A stretch of 64,000 nucleotides of DNA. Origin: Crocinitomicaceae bacterium. Its GTDB lineage: Bacteria; Bacteroidota; Bacteroidia; Flavobacteriales_D; Crocinitomicaceae. The position numbers and the translations under genes were made by a program. Within the stretch, counting starts at the first letter, position 1, and every line of letters begins with the position of its first letter. The notes beneath the pieces are model-generated. The model was not told where the DNA came from. It worked only from the letters and a program-made list of their open reading frames with translations, and did not search any database. The DNA is taken from NCBI GenBank assembly GCA_024639405.1, contig JAHEIL010000002.1, forward strand, positions 1-64,000, written 5' to 3'. Shown one piece after another: positions 27,859 through 30,449 of this stretch.

Positions 27859-28785
27859 TCATTTCTTGATTTTGGCAAATTTATCTAAGATCAACCGCCA
27901 ATAATTGGCAATAAAAACACCAATCAATACAACGACCATTGCCAAAAGTTGAAAAAAGGTGATTCTTTCTCCAAAAGAAAAACCAATTAACACAGCAACT
28001 ATTGGAATAAAGTACGTTACACCACTTGCAAACAATGTTGAGGTATATGTTATCACACGATTAAAAACAATGTTTGCTAATGCCGTTCCAAAAATTGCCA
28101 AAATTGAAATAGCAGTTAACCCTTCTAGTGCAAATGGATTTGTTTGAAGTGTCGATACTGTTCCAAAAATATAATTCGCAATTAATGATGGAATAAATAC
28201 AATCGAAAAAGCTAATGAAGTTATTTCAATGGCTGAAAATTGCTGTAAAGTATGTTTGATCGTATTTAAACTAATGCCATACATAAATGTTGCCAGAACA
28301 ATCGCTGAAATTTGCCGCCATGTTCCTGAAGATTTAAAATCACTTCCTGCCAACATCAACAAAACAATTCCGATAAAACCTATGATAACACCCAGCAACT
28401 GAACAGAAGATAAGCGAACTTTAAAAACAATGAATCCAATTAATAAAGTAAAAATTGGTGTAAAACTGTTCAACATTCCAGCATATCCTGATGACAATCC
28501 TGTTTCTGCATACGTAAATAGAAATGCAGGAATGAAATTTCCAAAAACACCAACTAGAGCAAGAAAAATCAATTGTTTTAACGATTTAATTTTACGAAGA
28601 TTAAAAATACCAAAGGGCAACAACACACCACTTGCTATAGTAATCCTTAATGCTCCTACTTGCATGGCTGAAAAGATTGGGTGAGTCTCATCATAGGACA
28701 TTCCTTTTTTCATTAATATAAACGAACTACCCCAAATTCCTGCTAGAACGAACAATAATAGCCATGCTTTTAACTCTATTTTCAT
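27859..28785 (-). CDS. EamA/DMT family transporter
   Basis: The 308-residue protein has about ten hydrophobic helices arranged as two EamA repeats. The N-terminal block is WLLLFVLAGIWGSSFILMKK and the C-terminal repeat ends VVVLIGVFIANYWRLI. Such drug/metabolite transporters export amino acids, metabolites or drugs across the inner membrane; the substrate cannot be read from the sequence. A TAACTTTG element ends 4 bases before the ATG, so the mRNA is probably leaderless. It diverges from mraZ across a 292-base gap with MraZ-box-like repeats. Confidence 0.9.
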   Translation of the reverse strand: MKIELKAWLLLFVLAGIWGSSFILMKKGMSYDETHPIFSAMQVGALRITIASGVLLPFGIFNLRKIKSLKQLIFLALVGVFGNFIPAFLFTYAETGLSSGYAGMLNSFTPIFTLLIGFIVFKVRLSSVQLLGVIIGFIGIVLLMLAGSDFKSSGTWRQISAIVLATFMYGISLNTIKHTLQQFSAIEITSLAFSIVFIPSLIANYIFGTVSTLQTNPFALEGLTAISILAIFGTALANIVFNRVITYTSTLFASGVTYFIPIVAVLIGFSFGERITFFQLLAMVVVLIGVFIANYWRLILDKFAKIKK

Positions 28786-28845: not shown

Positions 28846-28895
28846 TGTTGAAAACCTGTTAATTTCTTGTTGAAAACCTTACATGTTGAAAATTT
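28846..28895 (+). repeat. Three spaced TGTTGAAAA direct repeats
   Basis: TGTTGAAAACCT occurs at 28846-28857 and 28868-28879, and TGTTGAAAATTT at 28884-28895. Starts are 22 and 16 bases apart. They lie between the EamA promoter and the distal MraZ-like box. They do not match the DnaA box TTATNCACA. Function unknown. Confidence 0.5.
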
Positions 28896-28905
28896 ATAAA
28901 ATTCT

Positions 28906-28921
28906 TACCACTTTTTACCAC
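28906..28921 (-). promoter_or_regulatory. Distal MraZ-box-like element, inverted copy
   Basis: The reverse strand reads GTGGTAAAAAGTGGTA, identical to the element at 29029-29044 but facing away from mraZ. Each has two GTGG units 10 bases apart. Confidence 0.55.
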
Positions 28922-29028
28922 AAGCCTAAAATACACTAATAATATCAAGTAAAAAATGAAAATAATTGCATTTTTTTGAAACCTTTTTTTATTCTATTCG
29001 TTAGAATTTATTAACAATTATTAAAAGA

Positions 29029-29044
29029 GTGGTAAAAAGTGGTA
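29029..29044 (+). promoter_or_regulatory. MraZ-box-like direct repeats upstream of mraZ
   Basis: GTGGTAAAAAGTGGTA holds two AGTGG units at a 10-base period, 33 bases before the mraZ start. MraZ of E. coli binds TGGGN repeats at 10-base period and that of Mollicutes binds AAAGTG repeats. This element fits the same spacing, so autorepression of the division cluster by MraZ is likely. Confidence 0.65.
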
Positions 29045-29077
29045 GAAATCCATTAATTTTACCCATTATTAATCGTC

Positions 29078-29536
29078 ATGGCAGGCTTAGTAGGAGAATT
29101 TGAAGTAAAGTTGGACGCAAAAGGGCGTTTCTTGTTCCCTTCCGGATTACGGAAGCAGCTTTCTCCTGCAACACAACGTGATTTCATGCTGAACAAAGGT
29201 TTTGAAGATTGTTTAACACTTTACCCGCTTACTGAGTGGGAAAAAATTAGTGAGAAACTTTCTAAAATGAATTTGTTTAAACCAAAAAACAGAATGTTTT
29301 ACCGCTTGTTTCATCAAGGGGCGAAACTGGTTGCTTTGGATAATGCAGGTCGTATTTTGATTCCAACCGCACACACAGAGCGTGTAGGATTGGTTCAAGA
29401 TGTTATGCTGATCGCATACAACGACAGAATTGAAATCTGGGATAAGTCTAAATACTTCGAAATGATCGAAGGAAACATGACGGATTTCGCTGATTTAGCG
29501 GATGAAGTAATGGGTGACTTAACGGATGGAGAATAG
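29078..29536 (+). CDS. mraZ: Transcriptional regulator MraZ
   Basis: The 152-residue protein has two AbrB-like swapped-hairpin repeats with the family signature DAKGRFLFPSGLRK (13-26) and DNAGRILIPTAHTE. MraZ forms a ring-shaped oligomer that binds short direct repeats before its own gene and represses the dcw cluster. Fitting repeats lie 33 bases upstream. It is the first gene of the cluster and overlaps rsmH by 11 bases. Confidence 0.97.
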   Translation: MAGLVGEFEVKLDAKGRFLFPSGLRKQLSPATQRDFMLNKGFEDCLTLYPLTEWEKISEKLSKMNLFKPKNRMFYRLFHQGAKLVALDNAGRILIPTAHTERVGLVQDVMLIAYNDRIEIWDKSKYFEMIEGNMTDFADLADEVMGDLTDGE

Positions 29537-30449
29537 CGAGAAAACATACCACATACCAGTAATGCTCAATGAATGCCTAGAAGGATTAAACATCAATCCT
29601 GACGGTGTTTATGTCGATGTCACATTCGGTGGTGGCGGACATTCAAAAGCAATTTACGAACAATTAAGTCCGAAAGGCAAGCTTATCGTTTTCGATCAAG
29701 ATCCTGACGCAAAAAAAAATGCGTGGGAAGCTCCAAACTTTTTCTTTGTTGCAGCAAACTTTGCTTTTCTATCCAATCATCTACGCCTTTTAGGTATTAA
29801 AAAAGTTGATGGGATTTTAGCAGATTTAGGTGTGTCATCGCATCAATTTGATGAAGAAACTAGAGGTTTTTCGATTCGTGCCAATGCTCCTTTAGATATG
29901 CGCATGAATAAAAATGGCGAAGTGAGTGCGTACACCGTAGTAAATGAATACGAAGAATATGCCTTAACTAAACTTTTCAGAACATTTGGAGAATTGAGTA
30001 ACGCTCGAAAAGTGGCAAGTGAAATTGTTAAAGTGCGTGCATCCAAAAAAATAAAAACAACCAATGATTTAATGGCTGCACTAGAAAAGTGCGCTCCAAA
30101 ATATAAAGATCATAAATTTTTCGCTCAAGTATTTCAAGCGATTCGCATAGAAGTGAATACAGAAATTGAAGTATTGGAACGCTTCTTGGAACAAACAGAA
30201 GAATGCATCGCAGAAAATGGTCGTTTGGTAGTTATGTCGTACCATTCACTAGAAGACCGCTTGGTGAAAAACTACATGAAAAGAGGTTCAATTCACGGAG
30301 AAATAACAAAAGATTTTTTCGGAAATGTATTAAAGCCATTTACAGAAATCAACCGTCACCCAATTGCCCCTCAAGAAGAAGAAATAGAAGTAAATACACG
30401 TGCACGTAGTGCAAAACTTAGAATTGCTGAAAGAAATGGCGATAAATGA
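29526..30449 (+). CDS. rsmH: 16S rRNA (cytosine-1402-N4) methyltransferase
   Basis: RsmH (MraW) methylates the exocyclic N4 of C1402 in 16S rRNA using SAM. The 307-residue length is usual. The SAM loop is DVTFGGGGHS (31-40). Further signatures are DGILADLGVSSHQFDEETRG, FQAIRIEVNTEIEVL and VVMSYHSLEDRLVKNY. It overlaps mraZ by 11 bases and ftsL by 14, indicating tight co-transcription. Confidence 0.98.
   Translation: MENSEKTYHIPVMLNECLEGLNINPDGVYVDVTFGGGGHSKAIYEQLSPKGKLIVFDQDPDAKKNAWEAPNFFFVAANFAFLSNHLRLLGIKKVDGILADLGVSSHQFDEETRGFSIRANAPLDMRMNKNGEVSAYTVVNEYEEYALTKLFRTFGELSNARKVASEIVKVRASKKIKTTNDLMAALEKCAPKYKDHKFFAQVFQAIRIEVNTEIEVLERFLEQTEECIAENGRLVVMSYHSLEDRLVKNYMKRGSIHGEITKDFFGNVLKPFTEINRHPIAPQEEEIEVNTRARSAKLRIAERNGDK

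Follow-up and report, generated by a model that had tools for sequence, protein, structure and literature searches.

Two MraZ-box-like elements of opposite orientation precede the mraZ (dcw) operon of this Crocinitomicaceae bacterium (Flavobacteriales) and, as judged from its conservation, the remote one is almost certainly a functional element of that operon. We lean towards the reading that MraZ would repress its own operon with the help of an auxiliary operator engaged by looping or wrapping of the DNA, and that this repression would be tuned by DnaA.

The inverted pair of boxes and its spacing

In the window, i.e. the whole stretch of 64,000 nucleotides that was analysed, GTGGTAAAAAGTGGTA occurs at 29029-29044 on the forward strand and, as an identical 16-mer, at 28906-28921 on the reverse strand, with the two centres 123 bp apart, exactly as the first-pass annotation had given them in coordinates, strands and distance. 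The gene context that it had proposed was likewise borne out by Pfam searches: the forward, proximal box precedes mraZ (29078-29536, forward strand; PF02381, E 8e-30), the first gene of the division operon, the product of which is the presumed binder; rsmH (mraW; 29526-30449, forward strand; also identified with Pfam) is the next gene of the operon; and an EamA-family transporter gene (27859-28785, reverse strand) is the divergent neighbour. Apart from the two boxes, a single match to GTGGTAAAAAGTGGTA with up to three mismatches was found in the 64-kb window, and this match carries three; GTGG-N6-GTGG is present there exclusively in the two boxes. The looser pattern GTGGKWNNNNGTGGKW yielded three matches in the 2.63-Mb genome, two of which are the window boxes, compared to one match for the reversed-pattern control. 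A larger MraZ regulon was rejected, the genome harboring only the two boxes and one weak match.

Both boxes are made of direct GTGG repeats with a 10-bp period, in the same register as the repeats of E. coli mraZ, and the MraZ-box-like character ascribed to them thus held up. The genome carries one copy of mraZ, which encodes a standard two-domain MraZ protein related to the solved structures 1n0e, 9qlr, 9qlg and 9sx6; MraZ is known from solved relatives to form multi-subunit rings. The proximal box is located at the mraZ promoter, whereas the distal box is not promoter-adjacent, and the arrangement departs from the single cluster of same-direction repeats typical of MraZ operators in that the distal box is inverted and some 120 bp away in 127/129 family loci. 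Very probably, the distal box would be bound by MraZ.

The family sample consisted of 150 Crocinitomicaceae genomes, 144 of which had a detectable mraZ gene, and 130 upstream regions from 22 genera were examined. The full pair, with exact matching at both boxes, was present in 126 of these regions; of the other four, three carry a single substitution and one was not long enough to be tested. CCAC-N6-CCAC was found between -200 and -75 of mraZ in 127 of 129 family loci (0.008% in shuffled sequences). Within the same zone of the 129 loci, other spacer lengths between the two CCACs (N2 to N12) were seen in only zero to two loci each, and GTGG-N-GTGG in none. The first-pass annotation had named absence of the distal copy from close relatives as grounds for refutation; with 127 of the 129 loci carrying it, against zero to two for other spacers, this turned out not to be the case. 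Crocinitomicaceae-like mraZ loci were also noticed in several metagenome-assembled genomes labelled Chitinophaga pinensis, Chryseobacterium gleum or Candidatus Kuenenia, which are probably misnamed.

Outside the family, the distribution of the pair is uneven. At the level of the order, the inverted pair was found in 195/299 genomes, own family included, and in the phylum sample in 17/296, some of them by chance. A full distal box, at 83-110 bp, occurs in a few other families of Bacteroidia, but the majority have a three-repeat proximal array devoid of such a box, so the remote operator is not universal. In loci L325-L394, many Bacteroidia families show a single inverted CCCAC or ACCAC half-site in the distal zone, which may be either a remnant or a working half-site. 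Inverted pairs with a spacing of 117-118 bp also lie upstream of mraZ in a distant group of the same phylum (f34, L233-L238), which we take to be Chlorobiaceae-like from its promoter type and phylum grouping; the layout there is a sigma70-like TTGACA promoter followed by three direct repeats, with TTTTCCACA-type boxes in between. Together with L239, L243 and L244, these loci display direct GTGG repeats after the -10 element, with a distal CCAC box, likewise inverted, 104-118 bp away; it is a parallel layout on a different type of promoter, sigma70-type TTGACA.

The spacing, taken between the leading CCAC of the distal box and the leading GTGG of the proximal one, is 121 bp in the window; among the 126 family loci, it is 116-124 bp in 116 and 108-109 bp in 10, with none at 110-115 bp. 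The short class occurs in three genera and requires three separate changes on the mraZ gene tree, forced by well-supported branches. The sequence between the boxes is poorly conserved, and anywhere from 0 to about 1000 bp separate the distal box from the nearest ORF upstream of it in the same loci. Because both of these vary while the spacing stays, a constrained interval between the boxes is favoured, and the step of ~10 bp between the two classes favours helical phasing of the boxes, which stays suggestive in its strict form because the long class is 8 bp wide, almost one helical turn. The near-constant spacing and the two classes ~10 bp apart lend indirect support to the looping by two MraZ rings put forward in the first-pass annotation; the loop itself we infer, and we consider the chances that the two boxes act through one bridged complex to be about even or slightly better.

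It is unlikely, although to be taken seriously, that MraZ uses the distal box as a second site which operates independently of any bridge, whether by cooperative filament-like binding, by concentrating MraZ locally or by directing DnaA at the distal boxes. Sequence by itself cannot reveal a loop, the spacing class of 116-124 bp is broad, and in many genera the distal MraZ box has DnaA-like boxes 23-25 bp away, all of which would suit this explanation; the spacing that is kept though the spacer sequence is not, the gap at 110-115 bp and the three separate ~10-bp shifts argue against it and for a bridged complex.

DnaA-box-like sites beside both MraZ boxes

DnaA-box-like motifs, which the first-pass annotation had overlooked, lie beside both MraZ boxes and, of all parts of the architecture, are distributed most widely. 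In the window, the proximal site, TTATTAACA (29008-29016, forward strand), is positioned 21 bp before the start of the proximal MraZ box. On the distal side, motif matching revealed three copies of TTTTCAACA on the reverse strand, at 28846-28854, 28868-28876 and 28884-28892, the last of which adjoins the distal MraZ box. These three copies form the densest cluster of DnaA-box-like sites of the 138-kb contig, and their orientation is opposite both to that of the proximal TTATTAACA and to that of the distal sites of most family loci. Box-like 9-mers are found singly elsewhere in AT-rich DNA too.

Across the family, a 9-mer with at most one mismatch to TTWTCMACA is found at -20 to -22 of the proximal box in all 126 loci, compared to ~3% of shuffles; it is perfect in 71 of them (TTATCAACA, TTTTCAACA) and otherwise reads TTATTAACA or TTATGAACA. 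With the same tolerance, a 9-mer accompanies the distal box in 92/126 loci, mostly 22-26 bp before it, and is missing in 34 within the orientation and window scanned; the canonical forms TTTTCCACA (25 loci) and TTATCCACA (8 loci) occupy the distal position in 33 loci. Elsewhere in the Bacteroidia, an MraZ array was recognisable in 63 loci, 47 of which have a DnaA-like box within 30 bp upstream of it; the commonest position is 10-12 bp ahead of the first GTGG, and 32 of the 42 families sampled are represented. Perfect boxes were seen in 29 loci, as opposed to 0.1% of shuffles and 2.2% of control windows from the same loci. The offset of -21 in Crocinitomicaceae would fit a three-repeat array minus its first repeat. 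The exact DnaA-MraZ composite pattern was found in 22/296 genomes of the phylum sample, several of which clearly have the mraZ composite by sequence, the others being chance matches or unchecked.

The DnaA protein encoded in the same genome has the DNA-binding domain IV (PF08299, E 3e-27) and aligns to the solved chains 1j1v and 8btg, with GGKDHATV in place of the GGRDHTTV of the solved homologues, i.e. with an alanine at one threonine of the DHTT motif. Over a longer stretch of the DNA-recognition motif of this protein (L217:8571-10001, reverse strand), GGKDHATVLHA replaces GGRDHTTV(L/I)HA, a change that may be related to the preference for TTATCAACA over TTATCCACA. The flanking sites are probably bound by DnaA.

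That the TTWTCMACA-like elements are instead sites of another factor, or core-promoter or UP parts, appears rather unlikely. The family boxes mostly have A for C at position 6 (TTATCAACA, TTATTAACA), the position at which the TTATTAACA and TTTTCAACA of the window genome deviate from the classical TTWTNCACA-type consensus, and such boxes are few in the putative oriC of a complete relative, as might be expected if DnaA were not the binder. In several genera and families, however, canonical TTATCCACA and TTTTCCACA replace them at the identical position; the boxes also occur in both orientations and vary where variation is tolerated, and the DnaA of the genome has domain IV, which together point to DnaA as the candidate binder.

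The promoter and the gene served by the distal box

Beside the proximal box, at 29054-29061 on the forward strand and at a fixed offset, lies TAATTTTA, an element of the TAnnTTTG type that we take to be the Bacteroidota -7 promoter element. The proximal box precedes TAnnTTT[AG] by 11-12 bp in 125/126 family loci (shuffles, 7.6% anywhere in 28 bp), and the element was found at 10-12 bp from the proximal box in 37 of 61 loci of other Bacteroidia. Beside the distal box, in its own direction, a -7 element was seen at scattered offsets in 16 of the 126 loci, which is the level of shuffles (12.7%). A further element, TGAAAC at 28977-28982 (forward strand), lies some 52 bp ahead of the proximal box and is conserved as TG[AT]AAC; it is seen at -51 to -53 in 97/126 loci, as TGAAACC or TGTAACC followed by a T-run, and is not a TAnnTTTG promoter.

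The first-pass annotation had also considered that MraZ might control the divergent EamA transporter gene through the distal box, and here the data spoke against it. The EamA gene is divergent in the window, and of the 126 loci 48 have an EamA homologue as upstream neighbour. Retention of the distal box extends to 49 loci where a different ORF is divergent and to 27 where the neighbouring ORF is co-oriented, with the neighbours taken as the longest ORF, such that single assignments may err. In the EamA loci, a -7 element occurs at any offset from the distal box in 9/48, near the shuffle level, with fixed distance absent, and the distance from the distal box to EamA is variable. In view of the neighbour swaps and the missing -7 element, the distal box is best regarded as a remote element of the mraZ operon rather than an EamA operator, and regulation of the transporter gene through it is very improbable. 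The EamA gene was accordingly judged to lie outside the system.

An RNA stem in the transcript, or a cruciform, formed by the inverted copies was rejected for absence of covariation and has a negligible likelihood: the repeat in the window is perfect over 16 bp, but own-pair identity between distal and proximal boxes does not exceed cross-genus identity (14.63 vs 14.75 of 18), which argues for two sites of one protein rather than base pairing, the two sequences drift independently, and the loop of such a stem would exceed 100 nt.

Since DnaA-like boxes cluster before mraZ, in AT-rich intergenic DNA, the region was also tested as a replication origin, a role for which the prospects are equally slight. 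In the complete relative G059, the GC-skew minimum lies at 1.758 Mb, on another AT-rich intergenic region with DnaA-like boxes, and mraZ at 2.53 Mb, 0.77 Mb apart, and sampled, strand-corrected GC skew changes sign at 1.71-1.77 Mb; the mraZ upstream region was thus rejected as oriC in G059, the genome of the window being a draft examined less deeply. The probable oriC of G059 (1757298-1757959; L211:7299-7960) is a 661-bp intergenic region of 25% GC at the cumulative skew minimum and carries TTATCAACA, TTTTACACA and TTATACACA; dnaA is located ~1.76 Mb from it, and the two are hence unlinked there.

Proposed mechanism and comparison with known systems

Under the reading that we favour, MraZ autorepression aided by an auxiliary operator, the mraZ (dcw) operon would have a composite control region at 28846-29061. 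MraZ bound to the proximal box would cover the stretch of promoter that separates the -33 zone from the -7 element and thereby repress its own operon, while the promoter-less, inverted box ~120 bp upstream would act as the auxiliary operator. One MraZ multimer gripping both boxes, with the DNA between them looped or wrapped, would make repression stronger and sharper. DnaA on the sites beside both MraZ boxes might either compete with MraZ or assist it, and the output of division genes would in this manner be linked to the state of replication. A farther-reaching version, which is possible but which we advance only tentatively, is that of a switch common to the phylum Bacteroidota, wherein DnaA and an MraZ ring would occupy abutting sites at the division operon's first promoter and replication initiation would directly gate transcription of the division genes; in Crocinitomicaceae, a loop would be closed by another MraZ/DnaA module, inverted and ~11 helical turns upstream.

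MraZ is among the most widely conserved bacterial regulators, yet the reason for its existence is puzzling, and its loss in E. coli produces no obvious phenotype (PMC8475190). Two MraZ operators conserved as a pair, the DnaA-like boxes next to them and the DnaA-MraZ adjacency over much of a class provide a short and directly testable DNA element.

MraZ operators have been described in E. coli (Eraso et al. 2014, as cited in PMC8475190) and in Mollicutes, where they consist of AAAGTG[T/G] direct repeats (Fisunov et al. 2016, as cited in PMC8475190). In the E. coli MG1655 sequence, three GTGGG repeats with a 10-bp period are found upstream of mraZ, GTGGGAAATTGTGGGGCAAAGTGGGA lying directly after the -10 element. 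What the window shares with these operators is direct repeats at the mraZ promoter, of GTGG type and with a 10-bp period. They are, however, single same-direction arrays next to mraZ, to which the window adds the inverted, promoter-less box ~120 bp upstream as well as a DnaA-like box beside each MraZ box; an inverted distal array was not found in the 434 bp of E. coli sequence examined.

In vivo binding of DnaA to the promoter region of ftsL is on record for B. subtilis (Goranov et al. 2005, as reported in PMC8203912), where rsmH and pbpB share an operon with ftsL (PMC11019786). The likeness lies in the presence of DnaA at the promoter of the same type of division operon; the difference is that binding was seen in vivo there, whereas here conserved, putative DnaA boxes are locked to MraZ arrays across Bacteroidia. 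The openly accessible literature on MraZ, to which our survey was confined, described neither an MraZ-DnaA combination nor, in connection with looping or with Bacteroidetes, the layout seen here.

The lac, gal and ara systems form repression loops with an auxiliary operator. As in these systems, one multivalent regulator would act on two sites of roughly fixed separation, of which one overlies the promoter while the other is remote; the difference is that the regulator here would be an MraZ ring rather than a LacI- or AraC-type protein, and that the loop is one that we infer. The layout of the window thus looks like a variant of the MraZ operator that would work in the manner of auxiliary-operator repression, rather than a new kind of system.
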